A stretch of DNA of 22,698 bases from a virus: positions 1 to 22,698 of the IMG/VR virus record IMGVR_UViG_3300042914_002352; one strand, written 5' to 3'. Shown one piece after another: positions 6,745-21,493 of this stretch. Each line of letters starts with the position of its first letter. The first letter of the stretch is position 1. The notes beneath the pieces are model-generated. The model searched no databases. It had not been told where the DNA came from and saw nothing but the letters and a program-made list of their open reading frames with translations. A program made the translations under genes and the position numbers.

Positions 6745-7266
6745 ATGAAAGCGCTTGTAATTGGCCGGGGAGAAACAGCCTGTATGCTGCCGGGCTTTGA
6801 TTTGTACATCGGTGTCAATGACTGCCAGTACAATGTCGACCACCTTATTGTAATCGACCCGCCTTTTGTGTTTGAGCATGCGCGGCGAAGCCAAATAGTC
6901 AAGCATCCAGCAAAGCTATTCACAAACCTTGCTGTGTGGGGTGACCTTCGCCCTATCCAGCTTATTGAGCTAGCCCCACGAAGAAACTCAATAGAAACGC
7001 TGGCAGGAAAGGTGCAATATCCATACACAAACAACAGCCCTTACGTTGCTGTGTGCCATGCCTTTTTCCAAGGAGCTACCGAAATAGTAATGTGCGGGGT
7101 TGACATGACCACTCATAAATCACTATCACACCCCAACAAGGTAGATTCTATTCGGCTGCACTATTCTATACTTCACAAGGCGCTTTCAAAGCACGGCTGC
7201 AAGCTATACCTGTATAAAAACCACGGTGTTCTTTCAGGTTACATCCCCGCGCTGAATGGTGCGTAG
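6745..7266 (+). CDS. Rossmann-like glycan-modification protein (possible transferase), opposite strand
   Basis: 173 aa and the only convincing gene on the + strand. It opens with a nucleotide-binding style beta-turn-helix (MKALVIGRGETACML), then YIGVND and DHLIVIDPPFVF, and later SPYVAVCHAFFQGATEIVMCGVDM, typical of a Rossmann-like domain of the MptE/DUF115 or Cst-type sialyltransferase kind, where a conserved 'GVD' follows a helix and strand. C-terminal helix and strand: HYSILHKALSKHGCKLYLYKNHG. Function is not certain. It starts 50 bp from the divergent protease gene and its 3' end overlaps the convergent glycosyltransferase by 28 bp, next to a set of glycan genes, so sugar chemistry is a fair inference. 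Its transcript would be antisense to the late operon. Confidence 0.75.
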   Translation: MKALVIGRGETACMLPGFDLYIGVNDCQYNVDHLIVIDPPFVFEHARRSQIVKHPAKLFTNLAVWGDLRPIQLIELAPRRNSIETLAGKVQYPYTNNSPYVAVCHAFFQGATEIVMCGVDMTTHKSLSHPNKVDSIRLHYSILHKALSKHGCKLYLYKNHGVLSGYIPALNGA

Positions 7267-7988
7267 ATTAACGGCGTTTCGCCGTGTACCGTAAGGGCGG
7301 GCTCTCCGGCCTTCCAGCTTTGGTAGCGATTTACAATTTCATCAACCTTATGAGCGTGGTTTTTTAGAGCCGAAGAATTTACCAGCTTCATTCGAATGTC
7401 ATCCCTAACATAAGAAAGGTGGTGCATCTCTATCTGCTCTCTACTAAACACCAGCACATTGTTGGATGCCAGCTTTCGCGTTGGATCGGCAAGCACCGGC
7501 CATTGAGTGTACTCTTTGAACACTCTATTCATGCCAAGCTTGTAGAAAAGTGGCACATAGTATTCTTCCGGCGTGGCATAGCGGTAGTCCGATGTCTTGT
7601 AATACGTCTGCATCTGACAGGCGCTGGCATCTTTGCCGGAAGCAACAAAGGCTGCCAAAGCATCGCGTAGCTGCTGCTTATTGTAAAGCTCATCGCAGTC
7701 GACCGTTATAAACACATCAGCGCCCTGCTGTTCGGCCAATATCCTACCTACATTGCGCTTATTGCACTCATTAAATGCTCCCGTTCCGGCAACCGGTTCG
7801 TAATGGTATAACACATCAATATCCATAGCCTCAAGCCTTGCTTTAAGGTCGAAGCCTAAGTAGTTGCCGTAGTTGGATTTTGTTTGGTACACCACAATAA
7901 CAACATCGGCCACGGCTCGAATACAGTCGATGGATTGGGGCAGCAGCTCACTGCCGTCAAACACATTATACGCCGCAGCTACCTTCAT
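7239..7988 (-). CDS. Glycosyltransferase, GT2-like
   Basis: 249 aa. The GT-A fold is suggested by an N-terminal strand (MKVAAAYNVFDG), a second nucleotide-binding strand (ADVVIVVYQ) and the metal-binding D97-x-D99 in VFITVDCDELYNKQ. A C-terminal block (IEMHHLSYVRDDIRMKLVNSSA) resembles the region after the acceptor site in this group. It would move a sugar from a nucleotide-sugar donor to an unknown acceptor (lipopolysaccharide, virion protein or DNA). No membrane segment or signal is seen, so it acts in the cytoplasm. The start overlaps the oxygenase stop as ATGA; the 3' end overlaps the + strand gene by 28 bp. Confidence 0.75.
   Translation of the reverse strand: MKVAAAYNVFDGSELLPQSIDCIRAVADVVIVVYQTKSNYGNYLGFDLKARLEAMDIDVLYHYEPVAGTGAFNECNKRNVGRILAEQQGADVFITVDCDELYNKQQLRDALAAFVASGKDASACQMQTYYKTSDYRYATPEEYYVPLFYKLGMNRVFKEYTQWPVLADPTRKLASNNVLVFSREQIEMHHLSYVRDDIRMKLVNSSALKNHAHKVDEIVNRYQSWKAGEPALTVHGETPLIYAPFSAGM
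7271..7285. other. GC-rich hairpin at convergent gene ends
   Basis: ACGGCG-TTT-CGCCGT is a perfect 6-bp stem with a 3-nt loop, four bases past the stop of the + strand gene and inside the 3' end of the convergent glycosyltransferase. There is no T run on either strand, so it is not a standard terminator; it may limit or protect the 3' end of the + transcript. It also encodes part of the glycosyltransferase tail, so chance is possible. Confidence 0.3.
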
Positions 7989-8656
7989 TTGGCATCAGTA
8001 AAAACAGTGTCGCGGGCGTGCCAGTCAATGTCAGGCGCGGTGTAGTAGTACAAAGCAATAGACTTGCGGCTTCTGCCTTGCGGGCATTGCAGCGGCTCGG
8101 GGTGGCCGTGCCAGCTATCATCCGTGGTGCTGAAAACTACCATGGTATTAAAGTCCGGCGTGTAGCGCTTAACAAGGCGTTTTTCTTTGTTATACAACCC
8201 GATGCCGCCAAGCCACTCTTCTTTCCATTCCTCGTTGAGGTAGATAAGCACATTGATACGCCGGTCGGCGCCCCATAGGCCATGCTTATTGAAGTCGACG
8301 TGAACGCCAAGCTTGCCCCCTGGTTTTATCTCATGGTAGCCGCCGCCGATTAGGTAAGGGTCGGGCATGAGGTGGCGTATGCCGGTTAACTCGCTAAGCC
8401 ACAAAAGGAATGTTTCAGAGTTGCACTCCCTAATTAGCTGCTTTGCCGCCGGTGAAAGCTTGGCCTCTCCGTGCGTTACAAGCTTACCTTCGTACTTGTT
8501 GTTAAACTTTCGGTCTGCCACCTTGTCAAGGTCGGGAAATTCATCTGCTACCTGTTTTAGAAAGGTGGCATCCCAAGCGCCATGTATTGCGATGTGTGGG
8601 AAAGGTTCGCCGGTGGCGTACGCCTTCGGGTCGGGTGTTGGGTAGGTAAAAATCAT
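7985..8656 (-). CDS. 2OG-Fe(II) dioxygenase (prolyl/lysyl-hydroxylase-like)
   Basis: 223 aa. The double-stranded beta-helix signature of 2-oxoglutarate/Fe(II) oxygenases is present: H119-x-D121 (GVHVDFNKHG) and H183 (SWHGHP), with R195 or R197 (PQGRSRKSIALYY) as the 2OG-binding arginine. Between them, RRINVLIYLNEEWKEEWLGGIGLYN matches the prolyl-4-hydroxylase-like group. It would hydroxylate a C-H of its substrate, using O2 and 2-oxoglutarate. Relatives are often found beside glycosyltransferases, where the substrate may be a sugar, lipid or protein. Here it lies in the middle of a glycosyltransferase cassette and in a genome with a collagen-like protein. Both starts and stops use ATGA overlaps. 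The fold call is strong, the substrate is unknown. Confidence 0.85.
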   Translation of the reverse strand: MIFTYPTPDPKAYATGEPFPHIAIHGAWDATFLKQVADEFPDLDKVADRKFNNKYEGKLVTHGEAKLSPAAKQLIRECNSETFLLWLSELTGIRHLMPDPYLIGGGYHEIKPGGKLGVHVDFNKHGLWGADRRINVLIYLNEEWKEEWLGGIGLYNKEKRLVKRYTPDFNTMVVFSTTDDSWHGHPEPLQCPQGRSRKSIALYYYTAPDIDWHARDTVFTDAK

Positions 8657-9321
8657 ATTCCGTATTTTCTTTTAAGGTTATCGTAAGCCTTGCGCTGCCC
8701 TTCAGTCATGTGCGCTTTGTTGCCAAGCAGCGATTCGCTTTGGCTACCAAGGTGAACACAAAGAGCGTCGGCAACGAGGCAGTGGTTATGCCCGTGAACT
8801 TTTAGCATGTCGCCTATCCAGTTATCCTGATACCAGTATTCAATCTCGTCAGGCAGCAAGTTGTCAATGCCAATATGCCTGAATACATCAAAGCGCATAG
8901 CGATAAACCACCCGCACAGCACATAGGTGGTGCGGTAGCCGAATGTAATGCCGGTGTATGGCTTATGGTAGATTAGCGTAGGGTCTTTAGGGCTTGCGCT
9001 GTCGGGCTTGTGTTCAAGCAGCTTTAGCAGGCAGTCGGGGCGCGGCTCGATGTCATTGTTAGCCATCACAATGTAGTCGTAGCGCTCAGATATCTCAAAG
9101 CCCCTCTTTATACCCTGCTTCATGGCCTTGTTGTAATTAAAGCCAATGCCGTTGTACTTTACAGCGTTAGCCCCTTCGTAGCTGTGTAGCTTTCCGCTTT
9201 CAACAACCACCACAGTAACATCATGGCCGACCTGATTCTTCATAGCACTAACCGCCGTCTGCGTCATTTTCAGCAGCTTGGTATTTGCCGTATTGCTTAA
9301 GATAACACAGAGGACTTGCAT
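8653..9321 (-). CDS. Glycosyltransferase, GT2-like
   Basis: 222 aa. It opens with the strand MQVLCVILSNTANTK, then a GT-A fold whose donor motif is N89-D90 in YIVMANNDIEPRPDCL, the 'ND' form of the DXD site common in GT2 rhamnosyl- and galactosyl-type transferases. Near the C-terminus DEIEYWYQDNWIGDMLKVHG is the equivalent of the catalytic-base region, followed by HLGSQSESLL. No membrane anchor is seen. It overlaps the upstream transferase by 25 bp and the oxygenase start as ATGA, so all are made together. The acceptor is unknown. Confidence 0.8.
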   Translation of the reverse strand: MQVLCVILSNTANTKLLKMTQTAVSAMKNQVGHDVTVVVVESGKLHSYEGANAVKYNGIGFNYNKAMKQGIKRGFEISERYDYIVMANNDIEPRPDCLLKLLEHKPDSASPKDPTLIYHKPYTGITFGYRTTYVLCGWFIAMRFDVFRHIGIDNLLPDEIEYWYQDNWIGDMLKVHGHNHCLVADALCVHLGSQSESLLGNKAHMTEGQRKAYDNLKRKYGI

Positions 9322-9968
9322 AGGTTTTTGTAAAATTGAATATCCTCATTTGATAGGGCAGTCTTTAGCTGCATCCATGCAGGATCGGGTGAATACTTTG
9401 AAAAGCCGGTGTTGTGCCCCACCCCTCCGGTGTCGCCTATGCCGTGCTTAATGCCCACCGTTATCATTGGCTTTATATCCGCCGTTCTACCTCTTAGCTG
9501 CTTCCAAAGGTCAATGTCCAGCCAAACGTAATCGTCAGCCGGCCACTTAAAACGCTCGAGTGCATCGAGGCGAATAAGGGTAGACATAAGCGAAGCCCTA
9601 CCATGGTGTGGGCTCATCCAATACTTTGAAGCCTTAATGTGGAAGTACAAAGTAAAGCCTATGCCAAACACCTCGGGCTTGCCGTACCGCTGCCAAAGGC
9701 CGACCATGGTGCTTATGTAATCCGGCGAATACCAGTCATCATCCTCCATTATCAACACAGCATCACACCCTGCCTCTTTGGCCATTTTGCAGCCAAGGCG
9801 CACCCGCGCCGTTAGGTCTTTGGTGCCCGGCTGCCACGGCATAATCGATTTGTCGACTATAATCCACAAATGTGGCTGCATAGTTTGTGCGGCCATGTAG
9901 TGCTTAAGCCTTTCTAAAAATACGCCGCGCCTGCTATCGTGGTGTGGAGTTACTACAGCTATCTTCAT
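9297..9968 (-). CDS. Glycosyltransferase, GT-A/GT2-like
   Basis: 223 aa from the ATG at 9968; this start makes the usual ATGA overlap with the upstream gene, so the longer GTG form (10025) is rejected. The protein begins MKIAVVTPHHDSRRGVFLERL, a GT-A N-terminus, and has an acidic metal-binding cluster E75-D76-D77-D78 (LIMEDDDWYSPDYI). Downstream WLDIDLWKQLRG and VGIKHGIGDTGGVGH may be acceptor-side elements. First of the three GT2-like proteins in the cassette. Sugar and acceptor are unknown. Confidence 0.75.
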   Translation of the reverse strand: MKIAVVTPHHDSRRGVFLERLKHYMAAQTMQPHLWIIVDKSIMPWQPGTKDLTARVRLGCKMAKEAGCDAVLIMEDDDWYSPDYISTMVGLWQRYGKPEVFGIGFTLYFHIKASKYWMSPHHGRASLMSTLIRLDALERFKWPADDYVWLDIDLWKQLRGRTADIKPMITVGIKHGIGDTGGVGHNTGFSKYSPDPAWMQLKTALSNEDIQFYKNLCKSSVLS

Positions 9969-10543
9969 ATCCCAGCGCCGTGCGTTGCTAAGTCCTTGTT
10001 CCACTCGTTTATATTCTCCTTGCACTTTACAGCGTAGGCGTGCGCAAGGTCTCGTGATGTAATCACCTTTGGCTCGCCTTCGATTTGCCCGGCGTAAATT
10101 GCGAAAGGTATGTGCGCGTGATTTAACAGCAATATTCCCGGAACATTCTTATCAATCTCATAAGAAATAAAGCTGTCAATCTTCCGGCTGTGAGCCTCTT
10201 CAAAGTAGCCCTCTTTGATATGGGTTTTTGGCAGCATGATATTGAACTTTGTACCCATGGCCACGGTGTCGCGCTTCATTGTAAAGCCGTTGACCTCGCA
10301 GTTAGGCTGAGCCACCAAAAACATCATAAACTCAATTAGGGCATCGATGTCGAACACAAAGACATCCTCCGAACAATTGATAATCATTGCGCCGGTGCCT
10401 GCATACTTGTTGTGCATGGTGTGTAGCACAGCACTGTCGCCCTCGTTGTCAAAGCCTATCGAGGCAATGCCGGGGTAGTTAAAAAAGGCTTGGCTACGCT
10501 CATCGTATGGCTTGGCCTTGTAGTTGGTCATTACTTGCATCAT
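9965..10543 (-). CDS. Unknown protein between HTH and glycosyltransferases
   Basis: 192 aa, not recognised. It has mixed alpha/beta make-up: FFNYPGIASIGFDNEG, SEDVFVFDIDALIEFMMFL, PNCEVNGFTMKRDT, GTKFNIMLPK and VPGILLLNHAHIPFAIYAG, then a helical end (ITSRDLAHAYAVKCKENINEW). No signal, membrane segment or clear catalytic motif is visible. It is coupled by ATGA to the HTH gene before it and to the first glycosyltransferase after it, so it might serve the modification cassette. Three Met codons lie in the first five positions (10543, 10540, 10531); the first makes the overlap and is chosen. Confidence 0.65.
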   Translation of the reverse strand: MMQVMTNYKAKPYDERSQAFFNYPGIASIGFDNEGDSAVLHTMHNKYAGTGAMIINCSEDVFVFDIDALIEFMMFLVAQPNCEVNGFTMKRDTVAMGTKFNIMLPKTHIKEGYFEEAHSRKIDSFISYEIDKNVPGILLLNHAHIPFAIYAGQIEGEPKVITSRDLAHAYAVKCKENINEWNKDLATHGAGI

Positions 10544-10773
10544 AGCTTGTAGAATTTAATTGCTCTGTAAACTGTCATGTGCGACACCTTCCATTTGTCG
10601 GCCACCGCCTGCACCGCCGCAACTTTTGGCAGCTTGTTTACCTTCATCTCTATGTCAAGATCATACAGCATATCCCTGTACATAACAATTTTGGCGTCTA
10701 CAAGTCCGGCGCGAAGCAGGCTCGTTAACATGCCATTCGATGAAAGCTCGTTTATTAAGGCTCTTCTGGTCAT
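10540..10773 (-). CDS. Small HTH protein
   Basis: 77 aa. Residues 50-74 (KVAAVQAVADKWKVSHMTVYRAIKFY) read as a helix-turn-helix: AVQAVADKW forms the first helix, KVSHM the turn and TVYRAIKFY the recognition helix. The first 45 residues are helical (LINELSSNGMLTSLLRAGL). Such small proteins could be DNA-binding regulators or adaptors. It sits between the tape measure and the 192-aa unknown, with ATGA overlaps on both sides, an unusual place for a regulator, and it is expressed with late genes. Confidence 0.6.
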   Translation of the reverse strand: MTRRALINELSSNGMLTSLLRAGLVDAKIVMYRDMLYDLDIEMKVNKLPKVAAVQAVADKWKVSHMTVYRAIKFYKL

Positions 10774-13283
10774 ATAGTGGTTGACACGCGCACCTCGGCA
10801 AAGTCTGTTTGCCCCTTGTTAATGTCAATAACCTTAACCACAGGCGCCGGAAGTTGGCGAAGCGCTGTGAGTAGTGCCGATGTGTCGTTTGTGCCGGAAG
10901 GCGTTGGCTGAAAGTTCACAACGCCATTGGCGAACTTTGGTGCTCCGACAAACTGTTCAAGGAAGCCGGGGTACATGCTTTGAATTGCCCGGGTGCCCCA
11001 TGCAGGAATCACACTCTCGCCCCTAGAAAGGTAGGCCGGTATGCTGTCGGATGTTTCTGTGCCGGGGCCATTGAGGCCTATCACACCTTCAGCAAAGCCC
11101 TGAACAGGTTTGTTTATTACAGCCTTGGCCGCTGCAAATGCAGTGTTCACCAAGGCAGACAACGCCGCAGCGGTGGCAATACCGGCAAATGACTTAGAGG
11201 CTATTTCTTTGGCCACTATCTGAGCAATAGAAACATTCACCGTCTTTTGCAAGGTGTCGAGTAATAAGATACCCACCGACCGGCTAAACTGTTTCAGGTC
11301 TTGCTCCTGTGAGGCAATGGTGTCGCCAAGTATTTGTGCAAGTTGCTGGCCAAACTGTATAGCAGAGCCTATCTGCTGCTCGTATGCCTGATTGGTGGCC
11401 TCGACCTGTTGTGCTAGCGTTTGAAGGTAGGTTTCCAAAGAAATCAATCCATTCTCTTCAATAAAGGCGTAGTAGTCCTCAACGAGCGCCTTGCGGTTGC
11501 CGTTGTACTGCTGCTCTATCAATAACAAGTTGGTAAGCCCTTCTTGGGTTTTAATAAGTATACCCTCCTGTTCAAGCGCCACAAGGTCGATATTAGCCTG
11601 CGCCGCCTGTGCCCTTAACAACGTCTGCTGTCCTATCCTGTCAAGGTCAAACTGCACAAATGAATCTGCCTGAGCCTTCAGCGCTGCAAGCTCTTCTTCG
11701 CGGCGCTTCTTTTCTGCCTCGGTAGCCTTTTTAGCCGCCTCCTGCCTTGCCTGAGATTCTTCGGTAAACTGCTCGTCTACTATTGCCTTAATCCGCTTGG
11801 CCAAATCTTCACGATCCTTCAGCCTTTTCTCGTCAATCTTTTTTTGCTCTTCTGTGGCCTTAACAGATGCCTCAATTTGAAGAGCGGTAATTTCGTTGCT
11901 ACGCTGCCTTACCTCATCTTGCAGCCTTGTTATCTGCGCCTGCGCCGCCTGAACGAACGACTGCCCGGCAGCCCCAAAGCGGGAAATATTGGCCTGAATA
12001 AACGCTATCTGCCGCTCGGCCTGTGCTCTAAAAAACTTTTCTTCTTCGATTGCCAGCGCCTCGGTGTCTTTTCCTGCCGCTTCAAGAAGCCTGCGGCGCT
12101 GGTCAAAGGTTTGCTTTGCCAAATCCAAGCGCCGTTCTTCTGCCCTTATCAACCGCTGCACTTGTGTTTCCTGCCTCCCAAGGGCATCGGTTTGGCTGTC
12201 GGTAAGCCCTAAAAAATCGGTTACTACAGTAATAGCCTCGCCTATCCCATCCACAAACGATTCTAAGCCGGGCAGGAAGTTGAACACCGCCCGCTTTACC
12301 TTGTCGAAATTTGTAATGAGCTCAACCAAGCCAATAACCAAAAGCCCTATACCGGTGGCGGCCAATGCTACACGAAGCAGCTTAAGCGCACCGGTCGACG
12401 TGCCTACAACAACAGCATAGGCACCTTGCGCCGCTGTCAGCGCCTTGGTTTGTGCAAGGGTGATAGTGTCAATGATTGCGCCCTTCTCCTTTATGATGTT
12501 AGCCACATTTAGCGCCACGTTAACACCCGCCGCCGCCTGTGCCAGCTTCTCTTGTGCCTGTTCGTTATCCGAGAATTGAACAGATAGCGCCGTGAAGGCA
12601 CTGCCCAAAAGGCCGGCAGTAACAACGGCATCTTCAAACTGCCGCTTAATGGGGTTCTTTGGCTCCCTGTTACCAAACTCATCGACCTTGCCCGTTGCTT
12701 GGTCAATCTGTAGCCTTAGGTTGGCTGCCTCGTCTGATGCCTCCCTGAAGCGATCGCTGCCAATGTCGGTGTTGTTAATCTCTTCGTCAAGCTCCTTAAG
12801 CCTTTCGCGAAGGGTGGTTAAGCTATTTGCCGCTCTAATGACAGCGCCCTCATAGTCGCCTACGTTGCGCCGAAAGTCACCCACCGCGCCCTCGGTGCCC
12901 TTAAGCTGGTCGGATATATTCTTAATCTGCCGTTGCAGCAACTGCCCGCCTACAGTTGAATCCCGCTGCTCCTGTGATAGCTTATTGTACTGAGCCGTCA
13001 ATACCGACAACTGAGCTCTTAACTGCTCGTTGCTGCCCTGCTCGGCCTTCTTGGCTTGATTGAGCTTTACAAGCTGCTGCTCATTCGACCTGTATTCGCT
13101 TGTGAGGCGCTTAAGCTCAACTGTGTTTTGTAGGTATTCTTCGCTTAGCTCCTTACCAGACACCTGCAACACCTTCTGCTGGTCTTTAAGGTCTTGGATA
13201 GCCTTTTTTAGGCTTACGGCATTTGCCGCCGCCTGCTCGGTGTCAAAGAATACCTCTAGGACAATTGTTTCTTCTGCTGCCAT
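10770..13283 (-). CDS. Tail tape measure protein
   Basis: 837 aa, the longest protein here. Tape measures set tail length and are threaded through the tail tube. The N-terminal 200 or so residues are coiled coil (VSLKKAIQDLKDQQKVLQ, KELDEEINNTDIGSDRFREA). A hydrophobic block at about 300-326 (LKLLRVALAATGIGLLVIG) is typical of these proteins and may meet the membrane during DNA entry. A long charged coiled coil spans the middle (RRLDLAKQTFDQRRRLLEA, AKKATEAEKKRREEELAAL), and the C-terminus has LSRGESVIPAWGTRAIQSM, a common tape-measure ending. By the rule of about 1.5 angstroms per residue the tail would be near 125 nm, which suggests a long-tailed (siphovirus- or myovirus-like) virion. Its start overlaps a 42-aa gene as TGATG. 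Confidence 0.9.
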   Translation of the reverse strand: MAAEETIVLEVFFDTEQAAANAVSLKKAIQDLKDQQKVLQVSGKELSEEYLQNTVELKRLTSEYRSNEQQLVKLNQAKKAEQGSNEQLRAQLSVLTAQYNKLSQEQRDSTVGGQLLQRQIKNISDQLKGTEGAVGDFRRNVGDYEGAVIRAANSLTTLRERLKELDEEINNTDIGSDRFREASDEAANLRLQIDQATGKVDEFGNREPKNPIKRQFEDAVVTAGLLGSAFTALSVQFSDNEQAQEKLAQAAAGVNVALNVANIIKEKGAIIDTITLAQTKALTAAQGAYAVVVGTSTGALKLLRVALAATGIGLLVIGLVELITNFDKVKRAVFNFLPGLESFVDGIGEAITVVTDFLGLTDSQTDALGRQETQVQRLIRAEERRLDLAKQTFDQRRRLLEAAGKDTEALAIEEEKFFRAQAERQIAFIQANISRFGAAGQSFVQAAQAQITRLQDEVRQRSNEITALQIEASVKATEEQKKIDEKRLKDREDLAKRIKAIVDEQFTEESQARQEAAKKATEAEKKRREEELAALKAQADSFVQFDLDRIGQQTLLRAQAAQANIDLVALEQEGILIKTQEGLTNLLLIEQQYNGNRKALVEDYYAFIEENGLISLETYLQTLAQQVEATNQAYEQQIGSAIQFGQQLAQILGDTIASQEQDLKQFSRSVGILLLDTLQKTVNVSIAQIVAKEIASKSFAGIATAAALSALVNTAFAAAKAVINKPVQGFAEGVIGLNGPGTETSDSIPAYLSRGESVIPAWGTRAIQSMYPGFLEQFVGAPKFANGVVNFQPTPSGTNDTSALLTALRQLPAPVVKVIDINKGQTDFAEVRVSTTI

Positions 13284-17517: not shown

Positions 17518-17521
<4 letters not shown>
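17300..17521 (-). CDS. Small beta-rich protein, distant paralogue
   Basis: 73 aa. It starts at the ATG at 17521, coupled by ATGA to the collagen gene. It has short strands ([41 protein letters not shown]) and a helical end ([10 protein letters not shown]). The length is the same as the protein at 1419-1640, and the pattern G-x-[FWY]-x-x-I-x-D followed by FLF-x-x-[SE]-EV is shared, so the two may be distant relatives. Unknown function; its place beside the fibre gene suggests a small appendage or assembly factor. Confidence 0.65.
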
Positions 17522-19103
<1,582 letters not shown>

Positions 19104-19107
<4 letters not shown>

Positions 19108-19921
19108 CGCTTGCGGGTGTTACGTTTAGCCTTTTCAGCCTTTATATCGGTTAGCTTCCTTTCGTAAGCCTTTAAGTCCTTTCGCATCTGTAGCGTTACA
19201 AGTATCTCCATCATAGGAAGGTTTAGGTAGTAGCTGTCTTTGGTCTTATCCCCAGCCGTGAGGCTATCGAGCGTAAGTAGCCAGCCATATTTTTGGAGCC
19301 TGTCAACGCCCGCTGCAACCTCGTCAGGTTCGGGCTGTGCGCCTTCGGCTTTTTGGCTTCGGCTGAACTCAGAAATTTTCCCAAAAAAAAACTGTGAAGC
19401 CTAAAGGCATCGGTGTAGGGCATATTCTCAACCGCCTCAATAAGCTCCTTTAGGCGAGTATCGCTTTCTGAGTATGGCGTTTCACACAAGCACAACGCCA
19501 CACACTCGGCTATGTTATCCTGCGCAATCTTACCACCCTTGCAGATATTCTCATAGCGTATCTGATAGCCGAACTGTAGTTTCGAAGGCTCAAAGGCTGT
19601 GCTGTATTCTTTGCCTGCCAGCGTTATCACCAGCGGCGGCCTTTCATTTGCCACCTCCTGAAAGTTGGGAGCTTCGGTGAACACAAAGCCAACGACCGGC
19701 CAAAGCTCTGAAAGTACAAAGCCGGTTTGGAACCGGTTAACAGTGGCAACGTCAAGGCCGCTAAACAGCGCTATCCAATGGGCTGGGTCTTCCTTGTGCT
19801 CGGAGTCCGACAGCTTAAGCGCCAACATCATTTCTTTGAGTGTGACATCTTCCCAGCTGGAAGGCAGGGAGAATGGCTTTATTTCACCTTCCGGTGTCTT
19901 GTATTTATAGGGTAGCCTCAT
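19104..19921 (-). CDS. Full-length tail-assembly-chaperone-like protein made by -1 frameshift
   Basis: Starting at the ATG at 19921 (ATGA overlap with the terminase), the first 180 codons are read in frame 0 up to a T9 run; reading then continues in the -1 frame for 92 more codons, giving 272 aa. The extension looks fully coding: [15 protein letters not shown], then [35 protein letters not shown] and a Lys-rich end. Its stop forms an ATGA overlap with the collagen-gene start, as at most junctions here, whereas the frame-0 stop leaves a 115-bp gap. Many long-tailed phages make a G/GT chaperone pair this way upstream of the tape measure. A sequencing error (one T missing from T10) would look the same, and is the main alternative. 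Confidence 0.65.
19223..19921 (-). CDS. Frame-0 short form of the chaperone-like gene
   Basis: 232 aa if no frameshift takes place. Residues 1-180 include [53 protein letters not shown] and [21 protein letters not shown], a pattern that I associate with Bacteroidota phage proteins encoded near tail genes. After the T9 run frame 0 gives about 52 residues ([17 protein letters not shown] and on), basic and without an evident fold, and ends 115 bp short of the next gene. An upstream start (19990) extends into the terminase gene and is rejected because the 19921 ATG gives the standard overlap. Confidence 0.6.
   Translation of the reverse strand: MRLPYKYKTPEGEIKPFSLPSSWEDVTLKEMMLALKLSDSEHKEDPAHWIALFSGLDVATVNRFQTGFVLSELWPVVGFVFTEAPNFQEVANERPPLVITLAGKEYSTAFEPSKLQFGYQIRYENICKGGKIAQDNIAECVALCLCETPYSESDTRLKELIEAVENMPYTDAFRLHSFFLGKFLSSAEAKKPKAHSPNLTRLQRALTGSKNMAGYLRSIASRLGIRPKTATT
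19383..19391 (-). other. Slippery T9 run, putative -1 frameshift site
   Basis: On the - strand the sequence reads CAC AGT TTT TTT TTG GGA AAA in frame 0. The run offers the pattern T-TTT-TTT, in which both tRNAs can re-pair one base back; the -1 frame continues GGG AAA ATT TCT. A small hairpin (19317-19330, AACCT-GACG-AGGTT) lies about 52 nt downstream, farther than usual for a stimulator. RNA-polymerase slippage on T9 would give the same product. Confidence 0.6.
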
Positions 19922-21069
19922 AGTGGATATGCTCTGTCGTTGTCTGATGGTATTGATAGGCGCGGCGCTTTGATTGCCCCGAAGCCGCAAAGGCCAACAT
20001 GCCCGTACCGCCCTGCATCCATGCCGTCATCGTCTGCCTTGATAGGCACGTCCGGTTGGTTAGGGTTGTATCGATAGCTGGCTGCTTCACGCTGTAAATT
20101 TACTGATTGCGAGGTTATCTGCAAGGGCTTTGATTTAACAGCGTTGATTCCCGCTATCACACTTTTGTTCGCCCCCCTGGCAATATAGCCAGCCCTCAGC
20201 AGCTCGGTGATAACATCGGGGCGGGCGCTGTCTACGTATATAGCATGGCGCTTGCTCACTTTGCCGTCCATGATCCTAAGCAGGTCGGAGGTGGTAATGC
20301 CCTTTTGGTAAATCACCTCATGCCACTGTATGCTTTGCCCTACCTTACCCACCTCAATAAGCGCCATAGGGTGCTCGAAGCCCACGTCAAGGCCGTAAAC
20401 AAACTCATCCGGCTTGGTGTATGGCTGAATGGTGTAGTGGGTGTACACTGTGTTGCGTGCCCGTGCTGGCAAGCCCTCGCCGTAGATTCTCCAAAGCTCA
20501 GGGTCGGTCTCCTTTAGTAGCTCAATCTCCCGCACCTGCTCGGGGGTAAGGTTGTGGATATTGTCTAGGTACGTGGTAATGATTTTGCAGGCATCTTCCC
20601 GCTCTAGCTCGGCATAGATAGGGTGCTGAATAAGCGATGGGTTGAATGCGTAGATAATACGGTGGCTTGTCCTTAGTTTTAGCTGCTTCACCACTTCCCA
20701 GTTCGCCTCAATCGCTTCATCAACAAACAGGATATGCCGCTTTCGCCCCTGCACCTTGCCCGGCGCATCGAGGCCAAAAAACTCCACAATATTACCGTTA
20801 TGGTAGTATATGTGGTCGGTGGCGTTGTAGCTGCGCGGGTCGTAGATGCCCGCCTCGGTAAGCAGGTCGAAGTAGTCGCGCATGGTAGTTGCCTTCAGGG
20901 CATTGAAGGTGTCGCGGCAGATGCTTATGGTCATGCCGCTGTGCTTTGAACATAGCCAAATAATAAACTGGCTCACAGAATAGCTCTTTCCCGATCGGGT
21001 GCTACCCTGCAAGCCAATGATGCGCTTGTGTGCTATGTTATCCCTTAGGAACCTCAGGTTTGGATTCAT
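19918..21069 (-). CDS. terL: Terminase large subunit
   Basis: 383 aa, of PBSX type. It is the ATP-driven motor and nuclease that packages DNA into proheads. Walker A is G22-STRSGKS (K28), Walker B is ILFVDE with D117 and E118. The nuclease half has the three metal-binding aspartates of the RNase H-like fold: D228 (YGLDVGFEHP), D280 (YVDSARPDV) and D351 (DGMDAGRYG). The gene overlaps the small subunit by 32 bp and couples by ATGA to the frameshift gene. Length and motif order are normal and nothing is missing. Confidence 0.95.
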   Translation of the reverse strand: MNPNLRFLRDNIAHKRIIGLQGSTRSGKSYSVSQFIIWLCSKHSGMTISICRDTFNALKATTMRDYFDLLTEAGIYDPRSYNATDHIYYHNGNIVEFFGLDAPGKVQGRKRHILFVDEAIEANWEVVKQLKLRTSHRIIYAFNPSLIQHPIYAELEREDACKIITTYLDNIHNLTPEQVREIELLKETDPELWRIYGEGLPARARNTVYTHYTIQPYTKPDEFVYGLDVGFEHPMALIEVGKVGQSIQWHEVIYQKGITTSDLLRIMDGKVSKRHAIYVDSARPDVITELLRAGYIARGANKSVIAGINAVKSKPLQITSQSVNLQREAASYRYNPNQPDVPIKADDDGMDAGRYGHVGLCGFGAIKAPRLSIPSDNDRAYPL

Positions 21070-21493
21070 CGGTCATCCATGGTGGCAGCTTGGCCGCCTC
21101 TACCTGATGCTTATGCCCTTCGTATAGCCCAAGGTCGCGGGCAATAATGCTGCTGTTGAAGAAGCCAGCCGCCGCACCTTCGAGCTTTTGGTTGTAGATG
21201 GAATGTTCCACACGTGTAACGATTTCGGAAAACTCAGTGCCTCTTTTGCGCTGGTTGTCGACATCTTCCCACCTGCTAAATCCACAGAACAAGGCAAAGC
21301 CACCTTTTGTCATTGGGCGCATACGCTTAAGATTCACTTCGGTGGCATCCTTACCCCTGTAATCAACCTCTATCAATGGGTTAGCTTCAAGGTGTTCTGC
21401 ATAGGCTACAAACTCACTCCATAGCTGCTCGGCATTTTCGTACTTTGGCGGCCTCCCAAACGGGCTTTTGCGTGTAACAAGGTCTAGGCTCAT
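21038..21493 (-). CDS. terS: Terminase small subunit (DNA-packaging protein)
   Basis: 151 aa. It recognises the packaging site and recruits the large subunit. The N-terminus has a Gly-Arg-Pro-Pro-Lys stretch (SPFGRPPKYENAEQLW), then a helix region (FVAYAEHLEANP), KRMRPMTKGGFALFCGFSRWEDVDN (a helix-turn-helix-like part) and a helical core ending AGFFNSSIIARDLGL, all typical of the GP3-type packaging proteins. It lies directly before the large subunit and overlaps it by 32 bp. The C-terminal tail (PPWMTDESKPEVPKG) is short and acidic. Confidence 0.9.
   Translation of the reverse strand: MSLDLVTRKSPFGRPPKYENAEQLWSEFVAYAEHLEANPLIEVDYRGKDATEVNLKRMRPMTKGGFALFCGFSRWEDVDNQRKRGTEFSEIVTRVEHSIYNQKLEGAAAGFFNSSIIARDLGLYEGHKHQVEAAKLPPWMTDESKPEVPKG

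Follow-up and report, generated by a model that had tools for sequence, protein, structure and literature searches.

Comparison of homologues indicated that the gene following the terminase large subunit gene (terL) in the window, i.e., the whole 22,698-nt stretch of DNA analyzed here (the 22.7-kb virus record IMGVR_UViG_3300042914_002352), very probably undergoes programmed -1 ribosomal frameshifting that would produce the short and long forms of a tail-assembly chaperone pair. Most ribosomes would read the codons AGT TTT TTT TTG (19393-19382), which hold the slip heptamer, straight through to give the 232-aa short form. A minority would slip back one base, with both tRNA-Phe on T_TTT_TTT, and make a 272-aa form carrying a helical C-domain. 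The comparisons described below show the in-register conservation of the heptamer, protein-level selection on the -1 extension and the existence of single-frame homologues; we infer that the ribosome rather than the polymerase slips, as well as the ratio of short to long form and the role as a chaperone. The device itself is a known phage frameshift, found here to be widespread in a protein family not annotated for it.

Slip site and reading frames in the window

The structural genes of the record lie on the minus strand, and the features discussed are listed in Table 1. On recheck, the gene coordinates, the T9 run at 19383-19391 and the 115 bp without a frame-0 gene given in a first-pass annotation of this DNA were all correct. 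The -1 extension up to an ATGA overlap and the total of 272 aa described there were confirmed as well, with the extension amounting to 93 codons if counted from 19385. No stop codon interrupts the -1 frame from the slip until the TGA at 19106-19104, which overlaps the next start (19107), and the long product thus comprises 179 + 93 residues with its junction at residue 179. The frame-0 product continues for 53 codons beyond the slip, and this tail received low AlphaFold confidence (about 41-52) in the model of the frame-0 form.

Table 1. Positions of the slip-site gene and its neighbors in the window.
Feature	Position	Strand	Evidence
Frame-0 gene, short form, 232 aa	19223..19921	-	ORF; ATG 19921, stop 19225-19223; homologues after terL in L002, L003, L004, L008
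Slip heptamer T_TTT_TTT, frame-0 register	19385..19391	-	Present in 81/81 sequences assembled
T9 run around the heptamer (A9 on + strand)	19383..19391	-	Unchanged in L002, L003, L004, L008
-1 extension, 93 codons + TGA, predicted helical C-domain of the 272-aa form	19104..19385	-	Conservation, codon-position signature
Overlap read in both frames, 162 nt, slip to frame-0 stop	19223..19384	-	ORFs, codon-position variation
Terminase large subunit, upstream neighbor	19918..21069	-	Pfam Terminase_3 3.7e-14; PHROG terL 3.6e-33
Terminase small subunit	21038..21493	-	PHROG 606, 7e-28
Next gene: ~150-aa N-terminal domain in tail-terminator slot, then collagen-like and fibre part	17518..19107	-	Pfam Collagen
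Tape measure protein, downstream	10770..13283	-	PHROG 20660, 1.6e-6

The pattern of substitutions differs on the two sides of the slip. In the largest clade of the family, the frame-0 third position was the most variable one upstream of the slip; inside the overlap, pairwise differences were 0.42 at -1 third positions versus 0.13 and 0.25 at the others, and after the frame-0 stop they were 0.48 versus 0.08 and 0.19. This switch in the third-position signature indicates that coding passes to the -1 frame at the slip, and by this measure the -1 frame downstream of it is under protein-coding selection. In the three close relatives of the window described below (L002-L004), -1 third-position variation was 0.53 after the frame-0 stop and 0.23 in the overlap, which suggests, on the basis of these three sequences, that constraint in the window's clade extends to the frame-0 tail.

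The -1 part could alternatively be a separate gene started inside the overlap, with no fusion, and gp39 of Nonlabens phage P12024S has been annotated in that way. This candidate was rejected on its late and unconserved start codons, as no ATG, GTG or TTG appears in the -1 ORF of the window until codon 57 of 93 and start positions are not conserved. Additionally, homologues of the two parts are fused, and a separate gene would leave the heptamer unexplained; we consider an internal start very improbable.

Homologues and constancy of the heptamer

When the frame-0 protein was used as a single query sequence, no relatives were recovered from viral contigs or annotated phages; they were reached instead with terL, with a profile built from an alignment, with a DNA motif and by fold search. 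A terL profile gave no match against genome contigs. The terL search led to three IMG/VR contigs (L002, L003 and L004), with terL 66-70% identical to that of the window, in which the gene after terL has the window's design and an unchanged T9. Their frame-0 proteins are only 33-35% identical to that of the window; the -1 extensions are better conserved (47-53% identical), and each of them overlaps the gene that follows by an ATGA. A further contig (L008), found by the alignment-profile search, is 18-21% identical, yet AGT TTT TTT TTG and ATGA are again present. The first-pass annotation had suggested that homologues be compared for a conserved slippery run; the T9 run is invariant in these four genomes and the heptamer is widespread beyond them. 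An uninterrupted gene without a run of T, named there as contrary evidence, was found in none of the close relatives, and only distant ones have a single frame. Comparison of homologues thus strongly supports the -1 frameshift that had been proposed.

Scans with the DNA pattern around the slip produced many AT-rich noise matches, and a match was retained only if both of its frames were open. The retained matches comprised ten contigs among L022-L032, which form another group of phages and each have a -1 extension of 79 codons, and a Pelobium manganitolerans prophage (L056/L102); neither is an independent test of the motif by which it was found. A profile of the frame-0 part, in which the motif was not used, was then run on 400 genomes of the Sphingobacteriales (the order of P. 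manganitolerans) and matched in 77. Both domains could be located in 70 loci. Of these, 69 have the C-domain at -1 and an in-register T_TTT_TTT, and the remaining one (L168) retains CAT TTT TTT intact but has a frame broken upstream. Run lengths among the 69 loci were T7 (43), T8 (6), T9 (15) and T10 (5). The motif played no part in the 69/70 figure or in finding phage P12024S, L008 and the terL relatives, apart from L105, which is counted among the 69 and is the same locus as L102. In one host chromosome (L138:2142-10200), terS/terL, the frameshift gene, the terminator slot and two structural genes were observed with no head genes nearby, and remnants of this kind may lie behind profile matches in the 77 genomes.

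At 40% identity, the 81 sequences assembled fall into 11 clusters. Directly before the slip they have CAT, GGT, AAT, TAT, AGT, TTT, TGT, ACT or CTT, i.e., this codon encodes nine different amino acids and always ends in T. Among 15,215 codons from the upstream parts of the family, only one other in-register T7 occurs. Where Phe-Phe is present, the heptamer would be expected from base composition in 13% of lineages, and even 8 independent lineages thus yield a probability of about 1e-7. The T9 run is thus not a product of chance, since it is invariant at 33-35% protein identity and an in-register T7 is so rare elsewhere. As judged from these alignments, the heptamer is conserved in the frame-0 register beyond the need of the protein.

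Homopolymers are error-prone in sequencing. A single missing T, or a broken gene, could therefore mimic a frameshift in what is truly a single 272-aa frame, as the first-pass annotation had noted. Flavobacterium phage 6H is a real case of that kind: its gene (L196:10352-10927) is broken and was rejected as another frameshift on a 2-base length difference from the gene of FPSV-F7 (L197:1504-2385), which is one continuous 293-aa frame. For the T9 of the window, a sequencing error was already refuted by conservation across relatives. A missing T is further ruled out by the same -1 offset and heptamer in 69/70 independent assemblies, with T7, T8, T9 or T10 and never another frame, so that an error of sequencing or assembly has next to no chance of being the explanation.

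Both arrangements of the gene occur in named phages. The protein gp38 of the isolated phage P12024S was found by fold search and matches the frame-0 model of the window (E 2.4e-6). Its gene (L195:23136-23830) resembles that of the window in following terL, in a T9 in register (CTT TTT TTT TAT) and in a -1 extension, here of 81 aa, the last part of which is gp39; it differs in a shorter N-part (150 aa to the slip) and in its annotation as two separate hypothetical genes. For gene 3 of Elizabethkingia phage TCUEAP1 (180 aa, directly after terL), the alignment covers residues 169-264 of the window fusion and so spans the shift at 179 (E 2.7e-6, from a small set of pairwise comparisons). Bacteroides phage BS-TP3 gp55 (PHROG 28240) and the genome locus L193 match both parts of the fusion profile in order. 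BS-TP3 gp55 and TCUEAP1 gene 3 share with the window gene the slot after terL and homology across the shift junction but are continuous in one frame, have no T run and have a shorter N-part. Additionally, models of the N-part and the C-part, which come from two frames, match the same single-chain phage proteins (A0A6J5N3F3 and A0A6J5SVK3), the matches of the C-domain being weak (E 0.03-0.06). Natural single-frame fusions of this kind indicate that the long product is a meaningful protein.

Probable slippage by the ribosome and candidate stimulators

The two frames could also be joined by RNA polymerase slipping on the T9 run, adding a base to some transcripts from which ribosomes would then read the long frame unshifted. 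Runs of T9 to T10 are present in the window's lineage and several others and are within reach of polymerase slippage. However, a long homopolymer is not what is kept, as 43 of the 69 profile-found loci have T7 only, which is too short for usual polymerase slippage. Ribosomal frameshifting is favored since the constant element is a codon-registered heptamer rather than a run length, and polymerase slippage in place of it appears rather improbable, although it could contribute in the T9 lineages.

Constructs with U_UUU_UUU shifted far less readily in E. coli than those with A_AAA_AAG (PMC5009743), and low-level shifting is thus expected. Two other phage chaperone genes gave measured frameshifting of 6-7% (PMC3711429). 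With RNAalifold, no downstream pseudoknot or hairpin common to a clade was found, and the fold downstream of the slip in the window was no better than shuffles; among the sequences folded, strong stem-loops just after the slip were observed only in L105 and L008 (z -3.75 and -2.25 versus shuffles). No upstream Shine-Dalgarno-like element was found in the window.

A different picture emerged for the T7/T8 clade of Sphingobacteriales prophages (L106-L135 and L146-L185, e.g., L107), in which GGAGG starts exactly 24 nt before the heptamer. It occurs at this position in 48/48 T7/T8 sequences with CAT, in one T9 member of the same clade and in one TAT-T7 sequence, and in none of the 31 other T9-T10 sequences. 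The motif is kept at synonymous positions, with GAG used in 49/49 cases versus 31% elsewhere, and the preceding codon is ACG, ATG or GTG with its final G fixed. A possible hairpin presenting GGAGG (GGGUA/UGCCC) showed very little variation among the sequences. In Bacteroidia the anti-Shine-Dalgarno is occluded, but prfB frameshifting, for which it is required, has been retained (PMC8710568). A stimulator role for GGAGG is therefore possible; it is a candidate Shine-Dalgarno-like stimulator, although its gap of 19 nt to the heptamer is long and the clade represents one lineage.

These observations led to a tentative proposal, which we hold with somewhat less than even confidence. U_UUU_UUU would be kept in the tail chaperone gene of Bacteroidota phages by two routes, either as an unaided U9-U10, as in the window, or as U7 with an invariant GGAGG at -24, and the 162-nt overlap in the window's lineage may be dual-coding with a functional frame-0 tail. 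If this is true, the combination of U7 and GGAGG would represent anti-Shine-Dalgarno-assisted frameshifting at an unusually long spacing, with GGAGG acting in a phylum whose ribosomes occlude that sequence at initiation.

Gene order and the probable tail-chaperone role

The two forms are most likely a Bacteroidota tail-assembly chaperone pair working like G/GT of phage lambda, by analogy with which the N-part common to both would coat the tape measure, and the C-domain, carried by the less abundant long form, would recruit the tail-tube protein. With lambda (Xu 2004; review PMC5009743) the window gene would share two nested products of one gene arising from a -1 shift at X_XXY_YYZ, a helical C-domain added to the longer one, and a long-tailed phage with a tape measure. 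They differ in the heptamer, which is U_UUU_UUU in the window and G_GGA_AAG in lambda, and in position: lambda G/GT adjoins the tape measure, whereas the window gene lies between terL and the terminator slot, with the tape measure five genes away. A place immediately ahead of the tape measure is usual for such chaperone genes but does not strictly define them. The frame-0 part of the window gene, unlike that of lambda, extends well past the slip, and no sequence homology between the two is detectable.

The first-pass annotation had placed the tape measure about 6 kb from the slip gene (5.8 kb was found) and had called this location unusual. That claim did not hold, as the slot after terL is the usual one for this gene in Bacteroidota siphophages, frameshifted or not. 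There, the slip gene heads a block of terminator slot, neck-like gene, two structural genes and tape measure that is common to these phages with and without the frameshift. The neighbor described as a fibre gene does have a fibre part but begins with a domain of ~150 aa (18658-19107), which is a separate gene in L002 (153 aa, L002:7912-8373) and L008, so that the neighbor is not simply a fibre. In the window and in L004 (5708-7588), this domain carries long, differing C-terminal fibre-like parts; the terminator slot is annotated as DUF1834 or minor tail U in Bacteroides phages.

Elsewhere in the window, genes for a 2OG-Fe(II) oxygenase (7985-8656, Pfam 7e-17) and glycosyltransferase-like proteins (within 7239-10025) are found in a cassette with a collagen-like protein (KGDKGD), and hydroxylation and glycosylation of the collagen-like phage fibre is possible. 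A 173-aa ORF with no Pfam match (6745-7266) lies on the plus strand inside this otherwise minus-strand cassette.

The tail-chaperone reading of the first-pass annotation was supported by gene order, by the two isoforms and by a tape measure gene in the same phage, and not by any significant sequence or fold match to a proven chaperone. The slip gene of the window has no Pfam match, and one family member weakly matches Phage_TAC_7 (0.024). Foldseek against the PDB returned nothing significant; the HK97 chaperone 2ob9 (Z 2.9, 65 residues, rmsd 4.3) was a weak fold match among unrelated rows. Sequence searches of solved structures gave none for the N-part and one chance match for the C-part. Due to this lack of significant homology to known chaperones, the pair is likened to G/GT and common descent is not claimed.

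The frameshift could thus be real and the protein something other than a tail chaperone, e.g., a factor for head completion or packaging that exists in two forms, as its place beside terL and at a distance from the tape measure would allow. However, the structural block headed by the gene runs as far as the tape measure, and in long-tailed phages a pair of isoforms arising from a -1 shift is the hallmark of tail chaperones (PMC5009743, PMC4493119); we regard a function outside tail assembly as unlikely. In phage TP901-1, a fixed fusion of the chaperone pair gave particles that look normal and do not infect (PMC4493119).

No published description of this frameshift family was found among the open-access papers searched. 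For a large group of phages and prophages of Bacteroidota, the results point to a gene, unannotated or split by annotators, that likely encodes the tail chaperone. To our knowledge, ribosomal frameshifting in Bacteroidota has been little studied beyond prfB, and the family offers a natural series of slip sites, comprising T7 with GGAGG, T9, T10 and single-frame relatives, for studying frameshifting by Bacteroidota ribosomes.
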